Below, piece by piece: positions 1-17,556 of a stretch of DNA of 64,000 bases. The notes beneath the pieces are model-generated. The model saw only the letters and a list, made by a program, of their open reading frames with translations. It ran no database searches and was not told the origin of the DNA. Location: NCBI RefSeq assembly GCF_002937115.1, contig NZ_NHRY01000075.1, positions 1 to 64,000 of the forward strand, given 5' to 3'. Position numbers and translations under genes: made by a program. How positions within the stretch are numbered: the stretch's first letter is position 1; each line of letters begins with the position of its first letter. This DNA comes from Rhodopila globiformis (GTDB lineage Bacteria > Pseudomonadota > Alphaproteobacteria > Acetobacterales > Acetobacteraceae).

Positions 1-417
<417 letters not shown>

Positions 418-916
418 CGGCAGTCCAAACCTCCGGCAGGAAGAGTTGGTAGGCAACCGGCAGGCTGGCATGGTCATTGGCCACCGAGAGGCTGACCGCC
501 ACCTGGCAGTTGTCCTGCTTGCCGAGTTGGCCGCAGTACTGCCGCGTCACGCCAACGGAATGCTTGCCCTGCTTGGGAAAGCCGGTGTCATCGACGATCC
601 AGTAGGTGATCTGTCCATGCCGCTCGATCGCCGGCAGCACCTCGGCGCGCACCGCGGCCAGCAGTGCCGCATCGTCCCACTCGGCCTGCGCCACCACGTG
701 GTGCAGCGACTGGTGTTTGGCCTGCACATGCGCCGGGTCGAGCCGTGCGGCCATCGGCTCGATGCTCTTGCGCTCGCCGGGCAGCAGCAGCCCGGTGCAG
801 TAGGCCCGCGCCGAGGCGGTGCGGCGGGCATGCCCTAAACCTCCGACCACCGCATCCAGATACGCCTCCAACCGGGCCTCGCTTGTCGGCGCTTGTCTTG
901 CTCCTTGCTGTTCCAT
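418..916 (-). pseudogene. IS701-family transposase, N-terminal fragment cut by the IS21-type insertion
   Basis: Starting at the ATG at 916, about 165 residues are recognisable as an IS701-type DDE transposase. The hallmark block is YWIVDDTGFPKQGKHSVGV followed by RQYCGQLGKQDNCQ, and it contains the first catalytic aspartate. After LFLPEVW the frame runs into the repeated end sequence of the neighbouring element and stops at 401. A full-length protein of this family has about 400 residues, so the remaining catalytic residues are missing and the fragment cannot transpose. The element's own terminal repeats were not identified in 917-989. Confidence 0.8.
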
Positions 917-989: not shown

Positions 990-3554
990 TCAACTGGCTC
1001 GCGGTTTGCCGCAGCCGGACTTGCGCTCATGCCGGCTCCCCTTTCGCCAAACCAAGCCAGTCAAGTCATTGACCGCAACGGATACGAGCGCGGCGCCAGC
1101 AGCCTCGGCCAGGTGAGCGAGGCTCAGTGGCGCGAAGGCGAACAGCCCGCGCAGCCAGGGAGCGAACAGGGCCAGCACCAACGCCGGCAAGGTCACGCCG
1201 ACGACCAGCGCGAGCGCTGCATTCGGCCGGCGCAGGACGGTCAGCACGCCGGCCGAACTGGATCGGTTGGTCAGCACAAGACCGAGATTGCCGAGCACCA
1301 GCGTAGTGAACGCCATGGCGCGGGCCGTCTCCTCGGTGTGGCTGTCGGCAATGCCAAGCTGGAACACGCCGAGCGCGGCGAGCAGCACGACGAGCCCCTG
1401 GGACAGGCCGCGCGCCAGCAACGCAAGGTCGAACAGCGGTGCGTCCGGGCGGCGCGGCGGGCGCTCCATGATGCCGGCCTCCTCGGGCTCCGCCTCGAAC
1501 ACGATCGAGGAGACCGGATCGATGATCATCTCCAGGAAGACAACGTGAATGGGGCCGAGCAGCAGGGACCAGCCGGCGACGACGGGGATCAGCGACATGC
1601 CGGCGATCGGCACGTGGACTGCCAGGATATAGGCGAAGGCCTTCCGAAGATTGTCGTCGATCCGCCGGCCAAGCCGAACCGCCGTGACCAGGCTGACGAA
1701 GTTGTCGTCCAGCAGCACCAGGGCAGCGGCCTCGCGCGCCACGTCGGTGCCGCGGCCGCCCATGGCGACGCCGATATGCGCAGCCTTCAGTGACGGGGCG
1801 TCGTTGACACCGTCGCCGGTCATGGCCACCACCTCGCCGGCAGCCGTGAAGCCTTGGACAAGGCGCAGTTTCTGCTCCGGCATGATACGGGCAAAGACGC
1901 TGGTTTCCGCAAGACGGTCGCGCAGCGCGGCGTCGTCGAGCGCGGCAAGGTCGTCGCCGGTCAGGACGTGCCGGGCATCGATCCCGGCCTGGCGCGCTAT
2001 GGCGCGGGCCGTGCCGGAATGGTCGCCGGTAATCATCACCACGCGGATGCCGCTCGCCCGGCAAGCGGCAACCGCCGCCGGGACCTCGGGCCGCAGCGGG
2101 TCTGCGAGACCGGTCAGGCCGACGAAGCGAAAGGCAAAATCGTGCTGGTTGCCGGGCCAGGGGCCGGTCCAGCCCGCCTCGGCCACGGCCAGGACGCGCA
2201 GGCCCTCGGCGGCCAGGCCGGCAACGTCGCGCCTGATCCGTTCGATGGCGGGCGGGGACAGGTGGCAAAGATCGGCGATCGCCTCCGGCGCACCCTTGGC
2301 GGCGACGATGTAGGACGGCGAGTCCGGGTCGGCATCATGCCAGACCTGCGACATCGCCAGCATGTCCGGCGCCAGCGGATAGCCATGCGCCAGGGTCCAG
2401 TCGCCGTGGATATGCTCCGTGCGCGCCAGGAAGGTCTGGCCGAGATCGGTGAAGGCGCGCTCCATCGGGTCGAACGGATCGGGGCGGCTGGCCAGGATGG
2501 CGAATTCGACAAGGCGGTGAAACGCCTCCGGCAAGTCCGCCACGCCGTCCACCGCAAGCGATTGGCCGTCAGCCACCAGCCTGGCCACCCGCATGCGGTT
2601 CATCGTCAGCGTGCCTGTCTTGTCGGTGCACAGCACGGTCGCCGCCCCCAGCGCCTCGATCGCGCTGGCGCGGCGGCTCAGCACCTTGCTCTGCGCCATG
2701 CGCCAGGCCCCGATCACCAGGAACACGGTCAGGACGAGCGGAAATTCCTCAGGCAGCGTCGCCATCGCCAGGGTGATGCCGGCGAGGATGCCGTCCAGCC
2801 ACGCGCCGTGCAGCAGCCCGTAGACGACGGCCAGGACCACCGATGCGCCAACACCCAGGGCGGCGAACACCGTGACGAGCCGGCGGGTCTGCACCTGCAG
2901 CGGCGTCGGCGCGCTTTCCACCTCTCCAAGGGAGGCACCAATGCGGCCGATTTCCGTACGCGAGCCCGTGGCGGTGACGCGGGCAATACCTGACCCGCGC
3001 ACGACCAGCGTCCCCGACCAAAGGTTCGGCGTATGATCCCCGCCAGGCCGCGCGTCGGCCGGCAGTTCGGCGGTGACGGCCTTGACGACCGGAACGGATT
3101 CGCCGGTAAGCAATGACTCGTCCGCCTCGAGGTGGGTGGCGTCCAGCAGCAGCGCGTCAGCGGGAACACGGCTGCCTTCCTCGACGAGGATGACATCGCC
3201 GGCGACCAGGGACGCGGCGGGCACCGGCTGGCGGTGTCCGTCGCGGATCACCGTCGCCCGTGGCGCGGTCAGGTCCTTCAGCGCCGCCAGGGCGCGTTCG
3301 GTGCGGTTTTCCTGCACCACGACCATGACGACGTTGAGGACGGCGAAGCCCAGCAGGATCAGCGCTTCGGCCAGGTCGCCGAGCACGAGATAGATGATGC
3401 CGGCGGCGAGCAACAATTGCAGCATCGGCTCGCGCACCGCGTCCAGGACGATGCGGACCGGGCCACGCGCATGCTCCTGCGGCAGCACGTTCGGCCCTTC
3501 GCGCCGCAGGATCTCCCGGGCTTCCTGTGTCGTCAGGCCGGCGGTGCTGAACAT
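990..3554 (-). CDS. Cation-transporting P-type ATPase (P2-like, PEEFP variant)
   Basis: This 854-residue inner-membrane pump should couple ATP hydrolysis to cation transport. Visible motifs in order are TGES (150-153, actuator domain), PEEFP in the fourth membrane helix (268-272), DKTGTLT with the phosphorylated Asp311, KGAPE in the nucleotide domain (about 420) and TGDGVND (579-585). There is an N-terminal cation-ATPase domain and six C-terminal membrane segments. It lacks an N-terminal heavy-metal domain and a CPC motif, so it is not a CopA/ZntA type. The ion-site helix has PEEFP where Ca2+/Mn2+ pumps have PEGLP, so the substrate cannot be named. It is a lone gene; the next gene upstream starts 600 bases away on the same strand. 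Confidence 0.88.
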   Translation of the reverse strand: MFSTAGLTTQEAREILRREGPNVLPQEHARGPVRIVLDAVREPMLQLLLAAGIIYLVLGDLAEALILLGFAVLNVVMVVVQENRTERALAALKDLTAPRATVIRDGHRQPVPAASLVAGDVILVEEGSRVPADALLLDATHLEADESLLTGESVPVVKAVTAELPADARPGGDHTPNLWSGTLVVRGSGIARVTATGSRTEIGRIGASLGEVESAPTPLQVQTRRLVTVFAALGVGASVVLAVVYGLLHGAWLDGILAGITLAMATLPEEFPLVLTVFLVIGAWRMAQSKVLSRRASAIEALGAATVLCTDKTGTLTMNRMRVARLVADGQSLAVDGVADLPEAFHRLVEFAILASRPDPFDPMERAFTDLGQTFLARTEHIHGDWTLAHGYPLAPDMLAMSQVWHDADPDSPSYIVAAKGAPEAIADLCHLSPPAIERIRRDVAGLAAEGLRVLAVAEAGWTGPWPGNQHDFAFRFVGLTGLADPLRPEVPAAVAACRASGIRVVMITGDHSGTARAIARQAGIDARHVLTGDDLAALDDAALRDRLAETSVFARIMPEQKLRLVQGFTAAGEVVAMTGDGVNDAPSLKAAHIGVAMGGRGTDVAREAAALVLLDDNFVSLVTAVRLGRRIDDNLRKAFAYILAVHVPIAGMSLIPVVAGWSLLLGPIHVVFLEMIIDPVSSIVFEAEPEEAGIMERPPRRPDAPLFDLALLARGLSQGLVVLLAALGVFQLGIADSHTEETARAMAFTTLVLGNLGLVLTNRSSSAGVLTVLRRPNAALALVVGVTLPALVLALFAPWLRGLFAFAPLSLAHLAEAAGAALVSVAVNDLTGLVWRKGSRHERKSGCGKPRAS

Positions 3555-3609: not shown

Positions 3610-4158
3610 CTAACTGCGATCAGTCGTCGTCATAATAGCCCGGCTCCGCCCTCGTGGGCAGGCAACGCCGTTGGCTCTGCTCTTCACCTTCGGGTTGGCG
3701 AAGGCCGAGGCCGCGATCTCGCGCCGGTACTCGCAGATCCAGTACGGCGTGTCGGTGATCCGCAGCAGCGTCTCGCTGGCCGGCAGGCTGCGCAGCACAT
3801 GATCATGATAACTGCGGCTGCCGGCCGCGTCCGTCGCGGGTGTCCGGAGACAGGCCAGGATCTCGCGATCGGTATCCGCGTCCAGCATGGCGTTTTCAGC
3901 AAACTGGTTGTTCAGGCCGGCCATGAGCGCGACCCAGGATCGTGCCGGCAGCAGTTCCGGTTGGAACGCCATGGGGCAGGCGCCGTATTCCGTCCTGCAT
4001 GGGCCCTCGGCGCTGCCGGTTGGCACCGGTGCCGCCCAGGCGCCGGCCAGGGGTGCCAGCCCGCCGGCGGTTTCGACCACCATGAAGCCGCCGACCAGGG
4101 TCCGTGTGGCCCGTGCCCGCTTTTCATTGCTGCGGTCCGGCATCGGCTCAGGGCGCAT
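3610..4158 (-). pseudogene. Diheme cytochrome c (DHC family) with both heme-attachment motifs lost
   Basis: The body matches the periplasmic diheme cytochrome c that partners cytochrome b561: AFQPELLPARSWVALMAGL, NAMLDADTDREILACL, LLRITDTPYWICEYRREI, NPKVKSRAN. Where the family has CxxCH twice, this protein has Y58-G-A-C61-P62 and G164-V-A-C167-P168. At both sites the first Cys and the axial His are gone. The tail also looks frame-shifted: the frame used ends GRSRAIMTTTDRS, while a shifted frame reads RAEPGYYDDD and stops at 3620, like a normal family tail. The start overlaps the end of the b561 gene by 11 bases. The protein should be unable to bind c-type heme; a decayed gene is most likely. 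Confidence 0.65.
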
Positions 4159-4828
4159 CGGCCGGCTTGTCGCCGGTGATCATGCCACGCACCAGGTTCT
4201 CGCGGTGCGACAGGCTGGCCAGGGCGACGCCGGTGACGTGCAGCAGCACCAGAATCAGCGTCAGGTTGGCGAAGAACTCGTGGACCTCGCCGATGCCGCT
4301 CTCGCCGCCTTCATGGCCCTCGCCACCGGAGCCGCGGTCGTCATCGTCGCCGCCGGACCGGGCCGGCGCGATCAGGCCCGGGCCAGCCTGCGCGGCGGAG
4401 GGGCCGAACCACGAGGCCAGCGGGCCGGCATGCTTCTCCTGCGCCAGCACCATCATGCCGGTGCCGGCGGTCGCCGCCATCGAGACCAGCAGCGCCAGCC
4501 CCATCACAGCGCCCGCCGGGCTGTGGCCCAGGTACCGCTTGCTGCGCAGGCGCAGCGCGTCGCCCAGGTAGCGCAGCACCTCACCGGGCGGGCGCAGGAA
4601 ATTCGACAGGTCATCCTGCTCAGGGCCGATAATGCCCCAGGTCAGCCGCACCAGCACCGCGCCGGCCGCCGCGTAGCCTGCCCAGACATGCGCCGTCAGC
4701 AGGTCGTCCTCGGTCAGCCAGGCGATGGCGAAAGCGGCCACCAGGGTCCAGTGGCAGATGCGGATCACCGGATTCCAGACCCGGATCATGGTTTTCTGCG
4801 GCGGTGCAGCGATTTGCTGGCCCGACAT
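4148..4828 (-). CDS. Cytochrome b561-type membrane protein
   Basis: A 226-residue di-heme b-type cytochrome domain predicted to sit in the inner membrane and shuttle electrons to or from a periplasmic cytochrome c. Likely heme ligands are the histidines in RICHW, TAHVWAGY, VHEFF and LLHVTG, placed in hydrophobic helices. There is an Asp/Gly-rich loop (GGDDDDRGSGGEGHEGGE) before the last two helices. The start MSGQQIAAP at 4828 was chosen because GGAGAAGG lies just upstream; a longer frame to 4897 lacks membrane or family sequence. It is co-transcribed with the decayed diheme cytochrome c, so its normal electron partner may be missing. Confidence 0.85.
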   Translation of the reverse strand: MSGQQIAAPPQKTMIRVWNPVIRICHWTLVAAFAIAWLTEDDLLTAHVWAGYAAAGAVLVRLTWGIIGPEQDDLSNFLRPPGEVLRYLGDALRLRSKRYLGHSPAGAVMGLALLVSMAATAGTGMMVLAQEKHAGPLASWFGPSAAQAGPGLIAPARSGGDDDDRGSGGEGHEGGESGIGEVHEFFANLTLILVLLHVTGVALASLSHRENLVRGMITGDKPADAP

Positions 4829-4936
4829 GATGCCTTCTCCGTCTTGTGGCAGGCGCGAACCTGCTCCCGTGCCGCTGTCAGGGCGCTGTTGATCCATGTC
4901 AGCGAATTGTCAGGCGACGGCGCGGATACTGCGCCG

Positions 4937-5269
4937 ATGTGTCGTCCGACCCGCCGCGCCGTTCTCGGCTTCAGCCCGGGTGCAGCCGTCCTGCTCCTGG
5001 CCGGACTGGCGCGCGCGGATCACGACGACGACTGGCGTCACGACCAGGACCGCGCCCGTCTGGCCGTGGAGCGGGGCGAGGCGCAGCCGCTGTCGGAGAT
5101 TCTCGCCCAGGTGCGGCCGGCGCTCGGCGGCGAGGTCGTCGGCGTCGCCTTCCGCCGCCAGGGTGACCGCTGGCTCTACGAGTTCCGCGTCATCACCCGG
5201 GCTGGCCGAATGACGGAAGTCTACGTGGATGCCGCCACAGCCGAAATCGTCGAGCGGGAGCCCCACTGA
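4937..5269 (+). CDS. Small periplasmic PepSY-domain protein
   Basis: This 110-residue protein has an N-terminal signal sequence (MCRPTRRAVLGFSPGAAVLL, then LAGLARA) followed by an acidic stretch and one PepSY domain. The domain spans roughly residues 45-108: LAVERGEAQPLSEILAQV, GEVVGVAFRR, WLYEFRVIT, TEVYVDAATAEIVERE. PepSY proteins are often encoded beside b561 cytochromes and PhoPQ-type regulators, as here. The TGA overlaps the ATG of the response regulator (TGATG at 5267-5271), so translation is coupled and it is the first gene of a three-gene operon. The molecular role of such small PepSY proteins is not established; a sensing or inhibitory role is inferred. Confidence 0.82.
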   Translation: MCRPTRRAVLGFSPGAAVLLLAGLARADHDDDWRHDQDRARLAVERGEAQPLSEILAQVRPALGGEVVGVAFRRQGDRWLYEFRVITRAGRMTEVYVDAATAEIVEREPH

Positions 5270-5937
5270 TGCGTATCCTGCTGGTCGAGGACGATCCCCG
5301 CATCGCCCGCAAGGTGCAGGTGGCGCTGGAAGCCGCCGGCTACGCCATCGATGCCGCCGCCGACGGCGAGGACGCCTGGTTCCGCGGCGACACCGAGGAC
5401 TACGACGCCGCCGTGCTCGACCTCGGCCTGCCGAAGCTCGACGGGCTGGCGGTGCTGAAGAAATGGCGCGCGGCGCGGCGCGACTTCCCGGTGCTGGTGC
5501 TGACCGCCCGCGGCGCCTGGGCCGAGCGGGTCGAAGGCATCGACGCCGGCGCCGACGACTACCTGATCAAGCCGTTCGCCATGGAGGAACTGCTCGCCCG
5601 CGTCCGTGCCCTGCTGCGCCGCGCCGCCGGCCGGGCGAGCGCAATCCTGCGCATCGGCGCGGTGACGCTGGACACGCGGCAGATGCGCGTGCTGGTCAAC
5701 GACGAGAAGCTGCCGCTGTCGCCGCTGGAGTACCGCGCGCTCAGCTACCTGATGCATCACGCCGGCCGCGTCGTGCCGCCAACGGAACTGATGGACCACC
5801 TCTATGCCCACGACCACGACCACGACCTGAACGCCGTCGAGGTGCTGATCGGCCGGCTGCGGCGCAAGCTGGGCGTCGGCCTGATCGAGACCCGGCGCGG
5901 CTTCGGCTACGTTGTGTCGGAAGCCGCGCCGGCATGA
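5269..5937 (+). CDS. OmpR/PhoP-type response regulator
   Basis: A 222-residue DNA-binding response regulator. The receiver domain spans 1-115, with acidic pocket E7-D8-D9, phospho-acceptor Asp51 (AAVLDLGLPKLDG), Thr79 and Lys101 (YLIKPF). A winged-helix output domain follows at about 125-220 (LSPLEYRALSYLMHHAGRVV, NAVEVLIGRLRRKLG, TRRGFGYVV). The start overlaps the PepSY gene and the end overlaps the kinase gene (ATGA at 5934-5937), giving one translationally coupled operon. The sequence resembles the PhoP/QseB group. The divergent b561 operon and the PepSY gene are the obvious candidate targets; that is inference from context. Confidence 0.92.
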   Translation: MRILLVEDDPRIARKVQVALEAAGYAIDAAADGEDAWFRGDTEDYDAAVLDLGLPKLDGLAVLKKWRAARRDFPVLVLTARGAWAERVEGIDAGADDYLIKPFAMEELLARVRALLRRAAGRASAILRIGAVTLDTRQMRVLVNDEKLPLSPLEYRALSYLMHHAGRVVPPTELMDHLYAHDHDHDLNAVEVLIGRLRRKLGVGLIETRRGFGYVVSEAAPA

Positions 5938-7340
5938 GGAAGGGTTCGCTCCGGCTCCGCCTGTTCGCGGCCGGGGCGGCGTCGATCCTGCTGGCCCTGA
6001 CGATTGCCGCCGCCGGCCTGCTGCTGCTGTTCGAGCGCCATGTCGAGCGCCGCGTGGTGCTGGAGCTGGAAGGCGACCTGAAGGAACTGGTCAGCGATCT
6101 GACCCGCAACCCCGACGGCACGCTGGCCATCGGCCGTGCCCCGTCCGAACCGGCTTTCTCGGAGCCTCTGGGCGGACGCTACTGGCAGATCACGCAGCCA
6201 TCCGGCAGTCCGGTGCTGCGTTCGCGGTCGCTGTGGGATGGGCTCCTGGCGCTGCCGGCCGATACGCTGGCTCCTGGCGAGATGCACCGCCACGAGATGC
6301 GCGGCCCCGGCGGCAGCCACCTGCTGGCGATCGAGCGCGTCGTGACGCTGCCGGCGAGCCTGGGCGGCGGAGACATCCGCGTAGCGGTCGCCATCGACCA
6401 CCGCGAGATCACCGACGCCGCGCGCGCCTTCGCCGCCGATTTGCTGCCGGCGCTGGCGGGGCTGGTCGCGGTGCTGATCACCGCCGCCTGGCTGCAGGTG
6501 ACCGTCGGCCTGCGCCCGCTCGATGCCGTCCGCCGCCGGCTGGAGGCGGTCCGGACCGGGAAGATCCCGCGGCTCGGCAACGCCTTCCCTGACGAGGTGC
6601 AGCCGCTGGCGATCGAGATCGATACCCTGCTGGACGCGCAGGAGCAGGCGATCGCCCGGGCGCGGGCGCGGGCGGCGGACCTGGCGCACGGCCTGAAGAC
6701 GCCGCTGACGGTGCTGGCCGCGACCGCCGAGGAATTGCGCGAGCGGGGCGACGCCGCGGTCGCCGGCGAAGTGGCGAGCGTGGCCGACAGCATGCGCCGG
6801 CATGTCGAGCGGGAACTGGCGCGGACCCGCACCGGCATCTCCGGCCGTGCCCTGCCGCCGCAGCCGGTGCGTCCGGTGGTCGAGCGTGTCGTCGGCGTGC
6901 TGCGCCGCACGCCACGTGGCGGCGACCTCGACTGGCACGTCGATCTGGCCGAGGGGCTGTCGCTGGCCATTGATCCGCAGGACCTGGCCGAGATGCTGGG
7001 CAACCTGACGGAGAATGCCACGAAATGGGCCGCGACCCGGGTGCGCATCCTGGGGGCGGCGGAGCCTGGCGGCGTGGTGGTGGTGGTGGCGGTGGAGGAC
7101 GACGGGCCCGGCATTGCCGATGACGCCATCGAAGCCGCCCTGGCGCGTGGCGGGCGGCTGGATGAGTCGCGGCCCGGCACCGGGCTGGGACTCGCCATCG
7201 TCAGCGACCTCGTCGAAGCCTACAGCGGTTCCCTGGCCCTCGGCCGATCGGCTTTGGGGGGATTGCGGGCGGCGATCCGGATGCCGGGTGGGGAATGGCC
7301 CGCGGCATTGGGCCGGGGCGGCAAACCACAGGTGCCTTGA
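5934..7340 (+). CDS. Sensor histidine kinase (PhoQ/QseC-like)
   Basis: This 468-residue inner-membrane kinase is the partner of the preceding regulator. It has a membrane helix at about 8-33, a periplasmic domain of about 130 residues, and a second helix at about 166-188 followed by a HAMP-like linker. The H-box is ADLAHGLKTPLTVL with phospho-accepting His252. It also has an N-box (MLGNLTENATKW), G1 (DDGPGI) and G2 (GTGLGL). The H-box has HGLKTPL, a form seen in PhoQ-like kinases rather than HELRTPL. The start codon overlaps the regulator's stop. The signal is unknown; the adjacent PepSY protein could interact with the periplasmic domain. Confidence 0.9.
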   Translation: MRKGSLRLRLFAAGAASILLALTIAAAGLLLLFERHVERRVVLELEGDLKELVSDLTRNPDGTLAIGRAPSEPAFSEPLGGRYWQITQPSGSPVLRSRSLWDGLLALPADTLAPGEMHRHEMRGPGGSHLLAIERVVTLPASLGGGDIRVAVAIDHREITDAARAFAADLLPALAGLVAVLITAAWLQVTVGLRPLDAVRRRLEAVRTGKIPRLGNAFPDEVQPLAIEIDTLLDAQEQAIARARARAADLAHGLKTPLTVLAATAEELRERGDAAVAGEVASVADSMRRHVERELARTRTGISGRALPPQPVRPVVERVVGVLRRTPRGGDLDWHVDLAEGLSLAIDPQDLAEMLGNLTENATKWAATRVRILGAAEPGGVVVVVAVEDDGPGIADDAIEAALARGGRLDESRPGTGLGLAIVSDLVEAYSGSLALGRSALGGLRAAIRMPGGEWPAALGRGGKPQVP

Positions 7341-7741: not shown

Positions 7742-8131
7742 TCATCGCGCGACAATAACGGCTGTACTCGGTTGCCCGTCACACTCACAGGACACGGTGT
7801 AGCGGCCCGCCTTCAACGGCCCGAGGGGAATACGCGCCGTCCGGGACGGGTGAACGTGGGTCACCACCGGAGATCCGTAATCCGCCGCCGTCGCCGGGAT
7901 ACGCAGATCGTTGATGCCGGCGTCGGCAGCCGAGATCGCAATATCCACTTCCTTGATGGTGCCCACGGTCAGGACGAACGGCTGTTCGGCAGGAACGGTG
8001 ACCTCGGCGGGCTGGAGCCGATGATGCGTGACCGTCATCGACCGGTGGCCGGTTTCGGCCTTGAACAGGTCGCATCCGCCCAGGGAAAGCGCCGCCGCCA
8101 GCAGCGGCGTGGCCGGTTTGCAGACTCCCAT
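7742..8131 (-). CDS. Cupredoxin-like lipoprotein of the metal-efflux operon
   Basis: A 129-residue exported lipoprotein. The signal region ends in a lipobox (SLGGC, Cys20), so it should be anchored in a membrane facing the periplasm. The mature part looks like a cupredoxin-type beta sandwich: EVTVPAEQPFVLTVGT, VTHVHPSRTARIPLGPLKAG, RYTVSCECDG. Candidate metal ligands are His100/His102 in VTHVHP and the cysteines in SCECDG, with no typical C-terminal CxxxHxxxM loop. It starts 13 bases after czcA, so it is the last gene of that operon. A periplasmic metal-binding or delivery role is inferred. Confidence 0.75.
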   Translation of the reverse strand: MGVCKPATPLLAAALSLGGCDLFKAETGHRSMTVTHHRLQPAEVTVPAEQPFVLTVGTIKEVDIAISAADAGINDLRIPATAADYGSPVVTHVHPSRTARIPLGPLKAGRYTVSCECDGQPSTAVIVAR

Positions 8132-8144
8132 TACGATGCCTCCT

Positions 8145-11100
8145 TCATTGAATGTTTTGCGGGCGACGCGATTCGTGCTCGTACATCGCCTGCTGGCGCC
8201 GCTGGCCGCGTTCGGCGGTCCAGCTGTAGATGGCGGGCAGGACGACCAGGGTCAGCAGCGTCGAGCTGACCAGGCCGCCGACAACGACGGTTGCCAGCGG
8301 CTTTTGCACCTCCGAACCGATCCCGGTTGCCAGCAGCAGCGGCACCAGCCCGAGCGCGGCGACGGTCGCGGTCATCAGCACCGGACGCAGCCGCAGCATG
8401 GCGCCCTCGAACACCGCCTCGCGCACCGGCTTGCCGGTCTCGAGCAGCTGATTGAAATACGAAACCATCACCACGCCGTTCAGCACGGCCACGCCGAACA
8501 GGGCGATGAAGCCGACCGCCGAGGGCACGCTGAGGAACTGTCCGGACAGCCACAGCGCGCAGATGCCGCCAATCAGCGACAACGGAACATTCAGGATGAT
8601 CAGCGCCGCATCCGCCAGCGAGCCGAACGACAGGAACAGCAGCAGGAAGATCAGGCCCAGGCCGATCGGCACGACGATCGACAGCGTCTGCTGCGCCCGC
8701 TGCTGGTTCTCGAACTGCCCACCCCAGGTCACGTAATACCCTGGCGGCAGCTTCACTTTCTGTGCCACGGCCTGCTGCGCCTCGGCCACGAAGCCGCCCA
8801 TGTCGCGGTCGCGCACGTTGGTCTGGATCACCACGCGGCGCTGCGCGTCCTCGCGGCTGATCATCGGCGCGCCTTCCTCCAGCCCGATCGTCGCCACCTG
8901 TGACAGCCGGACACGCACGCCCTCCTTGTTGGCCACCCACAAATTGCCGATGGCGTCGGGATCGTTGCGGAACGCCTCGGCGACCCGCAGGTACACCGCG
9001 AAGCGGCGCTGGCCGTCGAGCACGTCGGTGATCCGCTCGCCGCCGACGGCCGTGGTCACCACGTCCATGACGTCGGCCACGTTCAGCCCGTAGCGCGCCA
9101 GATCCGCGCGCCGCGCCCGCACCACGAGCTGCGATTCGCCGCTGATCTGCTCCATCATCACCCCGGCCGCGCCCGGAACGGCGGCAACCGCCCCCTGGAT
9201 CGCGCGACCTTTCTCCTCAAGCACCTTCAGGTCGTCGCCGAACAGCTTGATCGCGATCTGCGCCTTGACGCCCGACAGCAGCTCGTCGACGCGGTTGGCG
9301 ATCGGCTGCGATATGCTGATCGTTACGCCAGGATATTCGCCGAGGTCGTCGGCGATCTTCTTCACCAGGTCCGCGCGGGAATGGGCCGTGGTCCACTCGT
9401 CATGCGGCTTCAGGCCAACCGCGATTTCGTTGTTGTTGACCGATTCGGGATCGCCGCCCAGCTCCGGCCGGCCGATCTGGCTCATGGCATAGGTTACTTC
9501 GGGGTAACGCTTCAGCTTCTGCTCCATGCGCCGGGCGATCCGCAGCGTTTCATCCAGCGAGATGCTGGGGTGCATGGTAATGCGGACATTAAGCGTCCCT
9601 TCCTCCAGTTCCGGAACGAACTCGGTGCCGAGGTGGGGAACCAGGGCGATGGCGCCGAGGAACGCCGTCACCGCGATACCGACAACGGCCAGCCTGCGCC
9701 GCAGCGCGAAGGCCAGGATCGGCCGGTAGCCCCGCTTCAGCCAGCGGACGATGACGCTGTCGTCTTCGCTGATCCTGCCGCACAGCATCAGGGACGCCAG
9801 CACCGGCACGATCGTCAGCGCGCAGACCAGGGAGCCGATCATGGCGAAGGCGATGACGAAGGCCATCGGGCTGAACAGCTTGCCTTCCACACCCTGCAGC
9901 GTGAACAGCGGCAGGAACACCACGATGATGATCAATACGGCGAAGAAAATAGGCTGCGCCACCTCGCGGGCTGCGTCCGCCACGCGCAGGGTGATCGACC
10001 GCTTGCCGTGGTTCGGCTCCGCCAGGTGCCGCATGATGTTCTCGACCATCACCAGCGAGCCGTCGACCATCATGCCGATGGCGATCGCCAGGCCGCCCAG
10101 CGACTGCAAATTCGCCGACAGGCCCCACCAGCGCATCATGATCACCGCCACCAGCATCGACAGCGGGATCGCGCTCAGCACCACCAGCGCGGAGCGGATG
10201 TTCCACAGGAACAGGGCCAGCACCACGACGATCAGCACCGCCGCTTCCTCCAGCGCCTTGGTCACGGTGTGGACGGCCGCCTTGATCAAGGAGGACTGGT
10301 CGTACAGCGGAGTCAGCGTCACCCCGGGCGGCAGCGTCGCCTGGATGGCTTCGATCTTCTTGCGGACGCCTTCGATCACCTTGTTGGTGTTGGCGCCCTT
10401 GAGCTGCTGCACGATGCCCATGACGACCTCGCCCTCGCCATTGAGGGACGATGCGCCCTGGCGGATCTCGCTGCCGTATTCCACGTCCGCGACATCGCGC
10501 ACATAGACCGGCGTGCCGTTCACCGATTTCAGCACGATGCTTTCGATGTCGAGCAGCCCATCCTGCCCGCCGCGGATCAGCCCCTCGCCGCGGATCACCT
10601 GCTGGTCCTGCGCACCTTCCAGGTACCACCCGCCGGCGTTGGCGTTGTTCGTCTGCAACGCGGCCTTCAGGTCGTCGATCGTCAGGTCATAGGCGATCAG
10701 CCGGTTCGGATTCACCCGGACCTGGTACTGGCGCACATGGCCGCCGATGCTCATGACATCGGTCACGCCCGGCACGGTGCGAAGCTGGAACTTGATCTGC
10801 CAGTCGTTGAGCGCCCGCAGGTCCATCAGGTCCATGGTCGGGCTGGTCAGCACATACTTGTAGATCTGCCCGAGCCCCGTGGTGATCGGCCCGAGTTCGG
10901 GATTGCCCAGGCCGTTCGGTATCCGTTGCCGGGCGATCTGTAATCGTTCCAGCACGAGCTGCCGGGCGAAGTAGGTGTCGATCGCATCCTCGAAGACGAC
11001 CGTCACCACCGACAGGCCGGTCTTCGAGATCGAGCGCACCTGGGTCACGCCAGTCAGGCCGCCCATCACCGATTCGACGGGGAAGGTGATCAGCCGCTCG

Positions 11101-11282
11101 ACCTCCGCCGCGGCCAGGCCGGGCGCCTGCGTATAGATCTGCACCTGGACGTTGGTGACATCCGGGAAGGCATCGAGGTTGAGCCTGGACGTGGACCACA
11201 GGCCGAACGCCAGCAGCCCGATCGCGGCCAGCACGACGATCAGGCGGTGCCCCAGGGCCCGTTCGATGATGGTATTGATCAT
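8145..11282 (-). CDS. czcA: Heavy-metal efflux RND transporter (CzcA/CusA family)
   Basis: This 1045-residue proton-driven inner-membrane pump exports divalent or monovalent metal ions through a tripartite complex. The N-terminus (RLNLDAFPDVTNVQVQIYTQ) and the sequence GGQFENQQRA near residue 840 are typical of the heavy-metal branch of the RND superfamily. The membrane motif IGMMVDGSLVMVENIM contains a single Asp, as in this branch, instead of the Asp-Asp pair of drug pumps. It has twelve predicted helices with two large periplasmic loops. The metal (Co/Zn/Cd/Ni versus Cu/Ag) cannot be fixed by eye. It lies 6 bases after czcB in one operon. Confidence 0.92.
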   Translation of the reverse strand: MINTIIERALGHRLIVVLAAIGLLAFGLWSTSRLNLDAFPDVTNVQVQIYTQAPGLAAAEVERLITFPVESVMGGLTGVTQVRSISKTGLSVVTVVFEDAIDTYFARQLVLERLQIARQRIPNGLGNPELGPITTGLGQIYKYVLTSPTMDLMDLRALNDWQIKFQLRTVPGVTDVMSIGGHVRQYQVRVNPNRLIAYDLTIDDLKAALQTNNANAGGWYLEGAQDQQVIRGEGLIRGGQDGLLDIESIVLKSVNGTPVYVRDVADVEYGSEIRQGASSLNGEGEVVMGIVQQLKGANTNKVIEGVRKKIEAIQATLPPGVTLTPLYDQSSLIKAAVHTVTKALEEAAVLIVVVLALFLWNIRSALVVLSAIPLSMLVAVIMMRWWGLSANLQSLGGLAIAIGMMVDGSLVMVENIMRHLAEPNHGKRSITLRVADAAREVAQPIFFAVLIIIVVFLPLFTLQGVEGKLFSPMAFVIAFAMIGSLVCALTIVPVLASLMLCGRISEDDSVIVRWLKRGYRPILAFALRRRLAVVGIAVTAFLGAIALVPHLGTEFVPELEEGTLNVRITMHPSISLDETLRIARRMEQKLKRYPEVTYAMSQIGRPELGGDPESVNNNEIAVGLKPHDEWTTAHSRADLVKKIADDLGEYPGVTISISQPIANRVDELLSGVKAQIAIKLFGDDLKVLEEKGRAIQGAVAAVPGAAGVMMEQISGESQLVVRARRADLARYGLNVADVMDVVTTAVGGERITDVLDGQRRFAVYLRVAEAFRNDPDAIGNLWVANKEGVRVRLSQVATIGLEEGAPMISREDAQRRVVIQTNVRDRDMGGFVAEAQQAVAQKVKLPPGYYVTWGGQFENQQRAQQTLSIVVPIGLGLIFLLLFLSFGSLADAALIILNVPLSLIGGICALWLSGQFLSVPSAVGFIALFGVAVLNGVVMVSYFNQLLETGKPVREAVFEGAMLRLRPVLMTATVAALGLVPLLLATGIGSEVQKPLATVVVGGLVSSTLLTLVVLPAIYSWTAERGQRRQQAMYEHESRRPQNIQ

Positions 11283-11288
11283 GCCGCG

Positions 11289-12431
11289 TTACTCGGCGCT
11301 GGCGAACGAGCTCTTCTCGAGCTCGGCGCGCAGCGTGAACGCGCCCTGGCTGACGACCTTCTCCCCCGGTTGCAGGCCGCTGACCACCTCGACGCGCGAG
11401 CGGCCGCGGTTGCCCAGGATCACCGGCCGCTTACGGAACACGCCCGGCGCTGCCTCCACGAAGACATAGGCCTGGTCCTTCTGCCGCTGCACGGCGGAAA
11501 CCGGGATGGCCAGCACGTTTGCCGGATGGGGCCTGATCGTGACCCCGGCGAAGCTGCCGGGGCGCAGCATGTGCTCGGCGTTGTCGAGCTCGACGCGGAT
11601 CTTCAGCGTCCGCGTCTGCTGGTCCACGATGTCGGAAATCCAGGTGACCTTGCCTTCGAAGCGGCGCTCGGGATAGCCCTCGACGATCACGCTGGCGGGC
11701 TGGCCGAGGGCGACTTTGCCGATGTCGCGGGCGAACACGCTGGCGATCACCCAGACATGGTCCAGGTTGGCCAGCCGGAACAGCGGCGTGCTGTCGCTCA
11801 CCTGGTCGCCGACATTGACGCGCCGCTCGATCAGCGTGCCGTCGATCGGCGCCCTGACCGGCATGCGGGGCGATACGCCGGTTGGCATCTCCCCAGCCTT
11901 GGCCGGATCGAGGCCCAGCAAGGTCAGCTTGCGCTCGGCGGCCCGCAGTTCCACGGCCGCCTGCTCGGCCGCCTGGCGGGCGACCTGGTACTCCTGCTCC
12001 GAGGTGATCCTCTTGGCGCGCAGGCTGGCTTCGCGCGCCGCCCGTGCCTGCATCAGCGCCAGCTTGGAGCGGGCCGTGAGATAATTTGCTTCCGCTTCCG
12101 CGATTGTGCTGCTCTCGATCACCGCCAGCGTGTCGCCGGTGCTGACGGTGTCGCCGAGGTGGCGCGGCACGTCGCGGACGATGCCGGCGCTGCGCGGCAG
12201 GATGTCGACGATGCGGTTCTGGTCGGGCATGACCTCGCCGTTCAGCAACAGCTCCGGGCTGATCGTGCCGGGCTGCGCCGGTTCGGTGGCAAGCTCGATG
12301 AGCTTGATCTGGTCCTGCGTCAGGCGGACCTCCCCGGACGGCGCGGCTTCCGGGGCGGGAGCGGCCCGGGCGCCGGTCATCACGAAGACCGGCAGCGTCA
12401 GCAGGGCCGCCATCAGGAATCGCCGGGTCAT
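11289..12431 (-). CDS. czcB: Periplasmic adaptor of the metal-efflux pump (CzcB family)
   Basis: A 380-residue membrane-fusion protein that bridges the RND pump and the outer-membrane channel. It has a signal sequence at 1-23 (FLMAALLTLPVFVMTGARA) and a split lipoyl domain (RSAGIVRDVPRHLGDTV and PVRAPIDGTLIERRVNVGD). These flank an alpha-helical hairpin (AEAEANYLTARSKLALMQAR onward), with beta-barrel and C-terminal domains following. Its first four bases overlap the end of czcC (ATGA), so the two are translationally coupled. No extra metal-binding N-terminal His-rich segment is present. Confidence 0.9.
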   Translation of the reverse strand: MTRRFLMAALLTLPVFVMTGARAAPAPEAAPSGEVRLTQDQIKLIELATEPAQPGTISPELLLNGEVMPDQNRIVDILPRSAGIVRDVPRHLGDTVSTGDTLAVIESSTIAEAEANYLTARSKLALMQARAAREASLRAKRITSEQEYQVARQAAEQAAVELRAAERKLTLLGLDPAKAGEMPTGVSPRMPVRAPIDGTLIERRVNVGDQVSDSTPLFRLANLDHVWVIASVFARDIGKVALGQPASVIVEGYPERRFEGKVTWISDIVDQQTRTLKIRVELDNAEHMLRPGSFAGVTIRPHPANVLAIPVSAVQRQKDQAYVFVEAAPGVFRKRPVILGNRGRSRVEVVSGLQPGEKVVSQGAFTLRAELEKSSFASAE

Positions 12432-13852
12432 GGTGCTGCTCCTTTCCCCGCACCACCGCGGCCGGGTTCGTTTCTTGATGATTGGCCGGTCAGCCGTTCG
12501 GCGTCGGCACTGGCGCCCTGGTAGGCCGCCTCGGCGTCGATCAGCTGCGCCCTGGCATCCAGCAGCGCGCGCTGGGCATCGAGAACTTCCAGGAAGCTGA
12601 ATTTTCCCTCCCGATAGCCTGTGCTGATGCCGTTGAACGTCGTCTCGGCGGCGGGCAGGGTGGAGCGGCGCAGTGCCCGCACGGTGTCATAGGCGGAGGT
12701 CAGCCGCTCATGCGTCTGCGCAATCGCCGCGGCAACCTGCTGGGTGACCTGCTGCTGCTGCGCCTGGCCCCTGGCCACCTGAAGCTGGGCGTCCCGCAGG
12801 TTGCCTTCGTTGATGCTGTAGACCGTCAGCGGGATCGAGAATCCGGCGATGAATGCCGTCTCTCCGACGCCATAGCCGTAGCGGCGGGCGCCGACGACGA
12901 TCCTCGGATCAGGAATGTTCTTTGCTTTCTCCAGCGCGACGCGTGCCTCGCGCTGGTTCATCTCGGCGGCCCATCGGGCGATGTCGGGGTTGTCGGCCGC
13001 CATGCGCTGCAACGCCGGCAGCGGCTGGACGGGCGCCACGTCGCCCAGGTCGCCAAGCGCTTCCTGGAAGCGTGGCTGCGTGCCGCCCCAGAAGGCGGCG
13101 AGGCGGGAGCGTGTGACCTGAAGCTCCCGCTCGGCCTTGTCCCGCGCCACCTGTCCGCCCGAGAGCAGCACCTGCGCGCGGCTTTCCTCCAGTGGCGACA
13201 CCTGCCCGGCGCGGGCGCGCTCGGCGACGGCGTTCGCCAGCTGGCGCTCGAGCCGCAGTGTTGCTTCGGCCAGCTTCAGCCGGCGCTGCGCGGCCAGGAC
13301 GTCGGTGAAGGCGCGCTTGGTGCCGACGAAGACATCGAGCCGCCTGGTTTCGTAGTCCCAGGCAGCCAGGGTTTCGCCCCATCGGGCCAGCCGGACCCGT
13401 TTCGCGCGTTTCGCTCCCAGTTCGACGACCTGTGCCAGGGCCAGCGTTGCCTGTGAGCCGCCCAGGGCACGCTTGGCCGGACCGGTGCCGGCGATATCCT
13501 CTCCCAGCACATCCATTTCGGGATTGGGCGGCCGATCGGCCTGGAGGGTACGGGCCTCGGCGGCGCGGATTTCGATGGAATACGGGGCCAGTGCGGGATT
13601 GCCGACCAGGGCGAGGGACAGGGCCCGCTGCAGGGTGAGACCGCCGATCGGCTCCGGGATGCGGGCGATGGTCGTGGCCGGCTGCAGCCCGGGCAACGGC
13701 GCGGACACGGGCAGCGGCGGTGACGGGGTTCCGATCGCATCCTGCACGAGCTGTGGAGGCGGCGGGCGGGTCATCTTTGCCTGGTCTGTGGCACAGGCGG
13801 TCAGGCCCAGCGCCAGGCATGCGCTGAGTGACTGCGACAGTCGTCGCGGCAT
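12428..13852 (-). CDS. czcC: Outer-membrane efflux channel of the metal pump (TolC/CzcC family)
   Basis: A 474-residue outer-membrane factor. The signal region ends in the lipobox LTAC with Cys20, predicting lipid anchoring in the outer membrane. Two TolC-type repeats are visible: LTLQRALSLALVGNPALAPY with the helical segment to about residue 240, and MAADNPDIARWAAEMNQREA onward to about 450. It is the first gene of the minus-strand operon czcC-czcB-czcA-cupredoxin. It is also the only outer-membrane channel in the window, so it could also serve the neighbouring MdtABC-like pump; that is inference. Confidence 0.9.
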   Translation of the reverse strand: MPRRLSQSLSACLALGLTACATDQAKMTRPPPPQLVQDAIGTPSPPLPVSAPLPGLQPATTIARIPEPIGGLTLQRALSLALVGNPALAPYSIEIRAAEARTLQADRPPNPEMDVLGEDIAGTGPAKRALGGSQATLALAQVVELGAKRAKRVRLARWGETLAAWDYETRRLDVFVGTKRAFTDVLAAQRRLKLAEATLRLERQLANAVAERARAGQVSPLEESRAQVLLSGGQVARDKAERELQVTRSRLAAFWGGTQPRFQEALGDLGDVAPVQPLPALQRMAADNPDIARWAAEMNQREARVALEKAKNIPDPRIVVGARRYGYGVGETAFIAGFSIPLTVYSINEGNLRDAQLQVARGQAQQQQVTQQVAAAIAQTHERLTSAYDTVRALRRSTLPAAETTFNGISTGYREGKFSFLEVLDAQRALLDARAQLIDAEAAYQGASADAERLTGQSSRNEPGRGGAGKGAAP

Positions 13853-14298: not shown

Positions 14299-17200
14299 CT
14301 ACGACCAGTTCCGTACCCGCCGGACTCCGTGCCGGGCGCCGGCCATGAACGTATAGACCACCGGCGTGGTGTAAAGCGTCAGCAACTGGCTCAGCAGCAG
14401 CCCGCCGATCACCGCTATCCCAAGCGGATGGCGCAGCGCCGCTCCCTCACCCCCGCCGACTGAAAGCGGCACGGCGCCCAGCACGGCGGTCAGCGTGGTC
14501 ATCAGGATCGGGCGCACGCGCTTCAGGCAGGCGTCGCGGACCGCCTCGGCCGCGGAAAGCCCGCGCTCACGCTGATTGCTCAACGCGAAATCGACCAGCA
14601 TAATGCCGTTCTTCTTGACGATGCCCAGCAGCAGGATCACCGCAATCAGGGCGACCACCGTGAACGGCGTGCCGGTGACCCGAAGCGCCAGCATGGCCCC
14701 GATCACCGCCGGCGGCAGCGTGGAGAGGATCGTCAGCGGGTGCAGGAAGCTTTCGTACAAAATCCCCAGCACGATGTAGATGGTGACCAGCGCCGCCACG
14801 ATCAGCAGTGCCTCGGTGCGCTGCGAAGCCTGGAACGCGGCGGCGGCGCCCGCAAAAGCGCCATGCACCGATGCCGGCAACCCGATCCGCGCCACCGCCG
14901 CCGTGATGGCAGCGACGGCGCCGGCCAGGGTGCCGCCGGGCGGCAGGTTGAACGAGATCGTGGCCGCCGCCTCCAGCCCCTGGTGGTTGACGACGATCGG
15001 CGCGATCCCGCGCTGCCAGCGAGCCACCGCCCGCAGCGGCACCATGGGCTCCATGGCCGGGCTGATCGGCGCGGCCGAAGCCTCGCCGCCGCGGCCGACG
15101 GCGGCGATCGCGTTGCTTGCCTCCTGTTGCGCGGCACCAGGCGCCGGCGTGGCGCCAATCCGCACGCTGACCTGCCGGGCAAGCCCCTCAACCGGTCCGG
15201 CCGCAATCCCTGCGGTCACGCTGGTGCCGGCCGGCGGCGCTCCGACGGTGCCGATGAACAGACGGTCCAGCATCGCCGGGTCCTGCCAGTAGGCCGGCGC
15301 GGCCTCCAGCACGACGTGATACTGGTTCAAGGCATCGTAGATCGTCGAAACCTGGCGCTGGCCAAACGCATCGTACAGCGCATTGTCGATCAGCACCGGC
15401 GTCAGGCCATGCGCCGCCGCCGCATCCCGGTCGATGTGCAGCATCGCCGAAAGGCCGCGGAACTGCAGGTCGGAGTTGACGTCCACCAGAGCTCGGCTCT
15501 TGCGCAACGCGGCAACCAGCCGATCGGCCGCCCCCTGTACCGCGGCCTCGCTGTCGCCGCGCAGCGTGTACTGGAACTGCGCATTGCTCGACCGCCCGCC
15601 CAGGTGCAGGTCCTGCACCGCCGTGAGGTACAGCCGCGCTCCCGCCACCCGGGACAGTCTCGGCCGCAGCCGGGTAATCACCGCATCGGCGCTGACGCCG
15701 CGTTGCGCCAGCGGCTTCAGGCTGATGAACAGCGAGCCGGCATTGGTCTGCCGTCCGCCCGTGAAGCCAACCACCGAGCCGACGGCCGGGTCCTCCCGCA
15801 TGACCTGCTCGAACTGGGACAGCTTTTCGCGCATCAACTGGAACGACGCGCTCTGGTCGCCGATCAGCTTGCCCACCAGCCGGCCGGTGTCCTGCTGCGG
15901 GAAGAAGCCCTTCGGCATCGAGTGGAACACGACCAGCGTCGCGCCCACGCACGCCAGCAGGATTCCGCCCATGAACAGGCGGTGCCGCAACGCCCAGTCG
16001 AGTGACCGCCCATACAGCCGCATTCCCCCGGCGGCGCCCCGCTTTGCCGCCGCGCCGGGCCGCAGCAGCACCACGCACATCATCGGCGTCGTTGACAACG
16101 ACACGACCAGCGACACCAGTACCGCCACCGACAGGGTCACCGCGAATTCCCGGAACATCCGGCCGACCAGCCCGCCCATGGCCAGGATCGGCAGCAGTGC
16201 GGCAATCAGCGACAGGCTGATCGAGACGACGGTGAAACCGACCTCGCGCGTGCCGGCCAGGGCCGCGGCCCGGCGCGGCAGCCCCTCGGCCATGTGGCGC
16301 TCGATGTTTTCCAGCACCACGATGGCGTCGTCCACGACGAATCCAGTGGCGACGATCAGCGCCATCAGCGAGAGATTGTCGATGCTGTAGCCCAGCAGGC
16401 ACATCACGCCAAACGTGCCGGAGATCGAAACGACAACCGCCACCGCAGGGATCGCGGCGGCTCGCAGGCTGCGCAGGAAGACGACCACCACCAGTACGAC
16501 AAGCCCGATCGCCAGCAGCAGCGCCTCGCGCATGTCCGCCAGTGAGGCGCGGATCGTGGTGCTGCGGTCGACCGTGATGGCAAGGCTGGCATCCGCCGGC
16601 AAAGCGGCGGTCAGTTCCGGCAGCAAGGCCCGCACCTCGTCGGCAATGGCGATGATGTTCGCGGCGGGCTGGCGGTACAGCATCAGCAGGACCGCCGGCT
16701 TGCCGTTCGCGAGCCCGGCATTGCGCAGGTTCTCCACCGAATCCGTTACCGCCGCCACGTCGCTCAGCCGCACCGGCGCGCGGGTGTGCGCCCCGGGCTG
16801 CGTGCCCTGGCGCCACCCGACAATGATCTCGCGCAGATCGCTGGCCCGCCGGATCCGGTCATTGACGGCGATCTGCAGGCGATGCCCGGCGAATTCCACC
16901 ATGCCCTTGGGGCTGTTGGCATTGGCCGAGGCCGCGGCGGCGCGCAGATCCTCCATGCTGATGCCCAGTTCCGCCAGCGCGTCCGGGTTGGTCTCGATCC
17001 GCACCGCCGGCAGCGACGCACCGGCCATGTCCACGTCGCCCACGCCGGGCAGTTGCGACAGCCGCTGGCGCAGCACGCTGTCGGCAGCATCGAACAACTG
17101 CGCCTGCGTCAGCGTGGCGGACGTCAGCGCCAGCACCAGCACCGGCGCATCGGCCAGGTTCACCAGCCGGTAGATCGGATTGCTGCGCAGCGTCGCCGGC

Positions 17201-17556
17201 AAATCGGCGTGCGCGGCATTGATCGCCGCCTGGACATCGCGCGCCGCGCCGTCGATGTCGCGATCGAGGCCGAACTGAAGCGTGATGCGCGTCAGCCCGG
17301 TGAAGCTCTGCGAGGTCATCTCGGAGACATCGGCAATCGCCGCGAGGTGACGCTCCAGCGGCGCGGCGACGCTGCTGCCCATGATCGCCGGACTGGCGCC
17401 CGGCTGCCGTGCCTGCACCAGGATGGTCGGCATGTCGATCTGCGGCAGCGGCGCGACCGGCAGGCCGAAATAGGCGACAAGCCCGGCCAGCAGCACCGCG
17501 ATGGTCAGCAGCGTGGTCGCCACCGGACGGGCAATGAACAGGGCGGACAGGTTCAC
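14299..17556 (-). CDS. mdtC: MdtC-like RND multidrug/solute efflux subunit
   Basis: This 1085-residue inner-membrane pump belongs to the hydrophobe/amphiphile branch of RND. The N-terminus is NLSALFIARPVATTLLTIAV, and the proton-relay helix has the Asp-Asp pair in GFVVDDAIVVLENIERHM. It is paired with a second RND protein upstream, the hallmark of MdtBC hetero-trimers. Compared with the partner it carries an extra Ala/Gly-rich stretch of roughly 50 residues (around VRIGATPAPGAAQQEASNAI) just before VPLRAVARWQRG in the second periplasmic loop. The start overlaps the stop of mdtB by 4 bases. It is the last gene of a seven-gene operon. Substrate unknown. Confidence 0.9.
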   Translation of the reverse strand: MNLSALFIARPVATTLLTIAVLLAGLVAYFGLPVAPLPQIDMPTILVQARQPGASPAIMGSSVAAPLERHLAAIADVSEMTSQSFTGLTRITLQFGLDRDIDGAARDVQAAINAAHADLPATLRSNPIYRLVNLADAPVLVLALTSATLTQAQLFDAADSVLRQRLSQLPGVGDVDMAGASLPAVRIETNPDALAELGISMEDLRAAAASANANSPKGMVEFAGHRLQIAVNDRIRRASDLREIIVGWRQGTQPGAHTRAPVRLSDVAAVTDSVENLRNAGLANGKPAVLLMLYRQPAANIIAIADEVRALLPELTAALPADASLAITVDRSTTIRASLADMREALLLAIGLVVLVVVVFLRSLRAAAIPAVAVVVSISGTFGVMCLLGYSIDNLSLMALIVATGFVVDDAIVVLENIERHMAEGLPRRAAALAGTREVGFTVVSISLSLIAALLPILAMGGLVGRMFREFAVTLSVAVLVSLVVSLSTTPMMCVVLLRPGAAAKRGAAGGMRLYGRSLDWALRHRLFMGGILLACVGATLVVFHSMPKGFFPQQDTGRLVGKLIGDQSASFQLMREKLSQFEQVMREDPAVGSVVGFTGGRQTNAGSLFISLKPLAQRGVSADAVITRLRPRLSRVAGARLYLTAVQDLHLGGRSSNAQFQYTLRGDSEAAVQGAADRLVAALRKSRALVDVNSDLQFRGLSAMLHIDRDAAAAHGLTPVLIDNALYDAFGQRQVSTIYDALNQYHVVLEAAPAYWQDPAMLDRLFIGTVGAPPAGTSVTAGIAAGPVEGLARQVSVRIGATPAPGAAQQEASNAIAAVGRGGEASAAPISPAMEPMVPLRAVARWQRGIAPIVVNHQGLEAAATISFNLPPGGTLAGAVAAITAAVARIGLPASVHGAFAGAAAAFQASQRTEALLIVAALVTIYIVLGILYESFLHPLTILSTLPPAVIGAMLALRVTGTPFTVVALIAVILLLGIVKKNGIMLVDFALSNQRERGLSAAEAVRDACLKRVRPILMTTLTAVLGAVPLSVGGGEGAALRHPLGIAVIGGLLLSQLLTLYTTPVVYTFMAGARHGVRRVRNWS

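Follow-up and report, generated by a model that had tools for sequence, protein, structure and literature searches.

In an intact SHP operon, quinol electrons are thought to run from CytB, a cytochrome b561, to the diheme cytochrome c DHC and from there to the oxygen-binding SHP. A known type of this operon also carries divergent genes for Orf1 (a PepSY protein), a response regulator (RR) and a kinase with SK1 signatures (Meyer et al. 2010, PMC2909971). DHC structures have been solved for Rhodobacter sphaeroides (2fw5 and 2fwt) and Shewanella baltica (3u99). In the R. sphaeroides protein, H51 is the sixth ligand and lies 18 residues before a signature tyrosine, and no variation was reported in the sixth ligands of DHCs (Meyer et al. 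2010, PMC2909971).

The 64-kb window analysed here (the whole stretch of DNA presented above) holds a locus that differs from the described operon (PMC2909971) in two respects: SHP is undetectable in the genome and the DHC gene is damaged. We think that this gene is probably a decaying DHC of an SHP operon from which SHP has been lost and in which CytB is intact.

The locus and its relatives

Judged from its sequence, the locus represents a reduced form of the known type of SHP operon, with CytB and DHC on one side and divergent Orf1, RR and SK1 on the other (Table 1). The start of the DHC-like gene overlaps the stop of CytB, whose product keeps all five invariant histidines (H49, H70, H125, H206 and H220); the intact b561 gene claimed by the first-pass annotation is indeed present. 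As in the regulated subtype of the operon, the divergent genes encode a PepSY protein, an OmpR-type regulator and a kinase that bears the YWQ and RSRSLWD signatures. The likeness extends to nearby heavy-metal efflux genes, which have been reported for some species, near SHP-type loci in some Chromatiaceae (Meyer et al. 2010, PMC2909971). In the window, a CzcCBA-type heavy-metal RND efflux operon (8145-13852, minus strand) is followed by a second RND pump (14299-17556). A small cupredoxin-like protein with the C-terminal end SCECDG adjoins the CzcA-type pump (7742-8131, minus strand) and, judged from its own sequence alone, seems to be without the usual Cys-His-Met copper loop. Near the contig start there is a truncated DDE_5 transposase (401-916, minus strand) that covers about half of its profile (positions 4-143 of 272).

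Table 1. Features of the SHP-type locus in the window; residue numbers refer to the DHC-like ORF.
Feature	Position	Strand	Remarks
Cation P-type ATPase	990..3554	-	downstream of DHC; in L038, too, DHC is followed by a 72% identical gene
DHC-like ORF, heme-less and frameshifted	3610..4158	-	182 codons
Ancestral C-terminal tail TRAEPGYYDDD*	3620..3655	-	readable in neighbouring frame after motif 2
H168P	3655..3657	-	at site of one-base net deletion
C167 kept	3658-3660	-	heme motif 2
C164G (GGC)	3667..3669	-	first cysteine of heme motif 2 lost
H144Y (TAC)	3727..3729	-	invariant REH histidine lost (CEY here); presumed distal ligand of heme 2
Y103C (TGT)	3850..3852	-	signature Tyr in C-terminal helix of domain 1 changed
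H85Q (CAG)	3904..3906	-	sixth ligand of heme 1, by correspondence, lost; HFGE to QFAE
H62P (CCC)	3973..3975	-	proximal histidine of heme 1 lost
C61 kept	3976-3978	-	heme motif 1
C58Y (TAC)	3985..3987	-	first cysteine of heme motif 1 lost
CytB (cytochrome b561 / Ni_hydr_CYTB), intact	4148..4897	-	stop overlaps DHC start
Orf1 of SHP operon, small exported PepSY protein	4937..5269	+	
OmpR-type response regulator	5269..5937	+	84% identical to regulator beside CytB in G1043
Sensor kinase, SK1 type	5934..7340	+	signatures GGRYWQ ... RSRSLWD

Two genomes of the same family, G1113 and G1043, show the same divergent layout, with CytB 64-66%, RR 83-84% and SK1 65-69% identical to those of the window. 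The order in G1113 is Orf1/RR/SK1, CytB, further genes, SHP and DHC, and G1043 has the same parts, with SHP and DHC grouped close by. Unlike the window, both have SHP and a heme-binding DHC. The succession of DHC and P-type ATPase recurs in L038, and therefore the window DHC seems to be a long-standing member of such clusters and not a stray fragment; a 71% identical ATPase lies downstream of CytB in the congener G027.

SHP (DUF1924) was not detected by profile search in the source genome or in four congeners, with a search that found it in six of seven other DHC-bearing genomes as a positive control, and tblastn gave no SHP in the 64-kb window. None of the 32 congeners searched by profile has a DHC. 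A CytB of 40-50% identity is kept in four of them (G006, G027, G002 and G022), beside Orf1/RR in G006 and upstream of the P-type ATPase in G027. A G006 locus (L159, contig C149, 2915-5185) has a tandem pair of b561 genes and, at a contig end, a stretch that matches an SK1-like kinase, with no DHC.

Heme sites and reading frame

The DHC-like ORF matches PF09626 with 71.5 bits (E 1.6e-19, cut-off 22.2) over profile positions 3-109 of 116, which confirms the first-pass assignment to the DHC family, and no other DHC was found in the 7.25-Mb genome; a contig scan with its protein gave no match. It is homologous across the whole domain to the solved DHCs, with which, as with the PF09626 family, it shares an adjoining CytB. 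Its nearest homologs are about 50% identical over residues 55-168, and most of its non-heme conserved positions are ordinary, in keeping with the earlier description of the rest of the chain as well kept.

In contrast to those DHCs, neither of the two CxxCH motifs that mark a functional diheme cytochrome c is intact. Motif 1 reads EYGACP (Y58-G-A-C61-P62) and motif 2 reads NGVACP (G164-V-A-C167-P168), so that an alignment of 173 homologs bears out the YxxCP and GxxCP noted at first reading. The distal histidines, which a functional protein would need as sixth ligands, are missing as well (H85Q and H144Y), two losses beyond those that had been listed. From its distance of 18 residues to the signature tyrosine, H85 corresponds in sequence to H51 of the R. 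sphaeroides DHC, and H144 is presumed from its invariance to be a ligand of heme 2. Altogether, six of the eight heme residues are lost (C58Y, H62P, H85Q, H144Y, C164G and H168P), that is, all the iron-ligand histidines and half of the heme-attaching cysteines, and only C61 and C167 are kept. The 173 homologs show no variation at C58, H144, C164, C167 or H168, and at most one deviating sequence each at C61, H62 and H85.

The frame changes at the H168 codon, inside the second heme motif, by a one-base net deletion, and therefore H168 was lost through or together with the deletion, and H168P is not a separately countable event. The shifted tail suspected at first reading is real: the tail readable in the neighbouring frame resembles that of normal DHCs (G-x-Y-D-D-D in many homologs). 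Since the deletion sits in a short C run of a draft assembly of 278 contigs, it could be a sequencing or assembly error, yet five separate single-base changes on heme codons form no error pattern and the long neighbouring genes are open (CytB, the 854-aa ATPase and a 1045-aa RND pump). An artefact behind the motif changes is thus extremely unlikely. A single base change separates every substituted heme codon from TGC or CAC, so the heme sites have not diverged far since their release.

Losses at conserved sites are uneven and concentrated at the heme sites. Taking as conserved the positions with at least 80% agreement in the 60 nearest homologs, five of the seven heme residues that precede the frameshift are changed, compared with 3 of 34 other positions. 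In a simulation weighted by codon mutability this gives P ~0.002 (0.002-0.013 across thresholds), a post hoc value that assumes independent sites and is uncorrected for threshold choice; Fisher tests give 0.0004-0.004 at most thresholds. Both distal histidines, which played no part in the choice of the finding, are lost; on their own they give P ~0.02-0.05 (also post hoc). At most thresholds the window deviates at non-heme conserved positions like typical intact homologs, apart from a few strongly conserved ones (G87A, Y103C, P131L and R142C). Cysteines C54, C103 and C142 are new, and the predicted model was too uninformative to claim any of them as disulfide partners.

Ancestry of the heme-less chain

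A tree of 104 columns, from which the heme columns had been removed, places the window DHC within a small cluster of intact DHCs, those of L038, L063, L079 and L006 (local support 0.91). As the chain nests among heme-binding DHCs, its loss of heme residues is, on this sequence comparison, derived; a branch that never had the motifs, which would have overturned the first-pass reading, is ruled out. With the heme columns masked, the window tip branch is ordinary (78th percentile).

Both CxxCH motifs are present in all 216 collected DHC domains save one remnant. Many of these domains were gathered with CxxCH patterns, which are blind to heme-less relatives. Profile searches that are independent of the motifs were also run, and the one that covered 398 genomes of the phylum is therefore the fairer test: of the full-length matches listed from it, only the window scores less than about 89 bits. 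The remnant (L013, 1480-1800, minus strand, in the alphaproteobacterium G121) is a second, independent one; its N-terminal half is missing and its frame is broken, and in contrast to the window it keeps the second CxxCH.

Decay or reuse of the fold

The first-pass annotation had left the choice between recent decay and reuse of the fold without heme. Under reuse, the DHC fold would be selected as an apo-protein, for instance as a periplasmic partner of CytB, and the frameshift would just swap a short tail. The clustering of the losses on heme residues, both distal histidines included, speaks for it and counts against plain decay, as neutral decay should strike all codons alike; so does the typical state of the other conserved positions. 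The ORF, moreover, stays open over 182 codons, overlaps the CytB stop with its start, has no premature stop and retains codon-position GC periodicity. The ordinary tip branch was also counted against plain decay, but it is a weak argument, because late decay on a long branch would hardly lengthen it. The fold is predicted to be that of a DHC: the AlphaFold model (mean pLDDT 72.6) reaches a TM-score of 0.75, normalized by the target, to 2fw5, and its only convincing matches are 2fw5, 2fwt and 3u99. The input alignment consisted of heme-binding homologs, however, so the model is no proof that the heme-less chain folds, and the P values, besides being post hoc, are modest. As a rule, small c-type cytochromes depend on heme for folding. 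No other heme-less full-length DHC occurs among the 216 domains or among the matches listed from the 398 genomes, and a literature search found no clear precedent for heme-less c-type cytochromes. In our opinion, reuse is unlikely, although it is the strongest alternative to decay.

Decay is better supported. The ORF combines the frame disruption and the loss of essential residues expected of a pseudogene, SHP is missing, no congener searched has a DHC, and damage extends to further conserved sites, including the helix tyrosine. The signal peptide is weakened as well: Glu29 lies in its core, and its peak hydrophobicity ranks at the 7th percentile among 136 homologs. The "recent" of the earlier proposal is plausible, but the nearest homolog, only ~51% identical, is too distant to date the decay. 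A two-step history, in which a heme-free protein was used for a time before the frameshift began true decay, would accommodate both the heme-site concentration and a shifted tail that is still intact. The tail is just 11 codons long, however, and so dates the frameshift poorly; we regard this history as very improbable.

In the decay that we favour, SHP would have been lost first, and constraint on DHC would then have relaxed, since with SHP gone DHC had no known acceptor. The heme sites would have been lost and a small deletion would have shifted the frame in the second motif, leaving a product that, by its sequence, would carry no c-type heme and no electrons. CytB and Orf1/RR/SK1 remain and would presumably serve another acceptor, by analogy with congeners that have a related CytB but no DHC; we infer that CytB is still working.

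Were reuse true, the protein would offer a rare example of the fold of a small c-type cytochrome existing without heme. In its fullest form, a diheme cytochrome c fold would have lost its two hemes but would continue to be produced, and to be maintained by selection, as a heme-free partner in the periplasm for a b561 cytochrome that has lost its downstream acceptor; this seems to us rather doubtful. If the gene is decaying, as we think probable, the locus is ordinary in kind, yet it shows with unusual clarity an intermediate stage in the loss of an electron-transfer chain: the acceptor and the ligands of the carrier are gone, and the membrane donor and the regulators are kept. Decay of DHC would fit the proposed order of quinol, CytB, DHC and SHP, and hints at another use of CytB.
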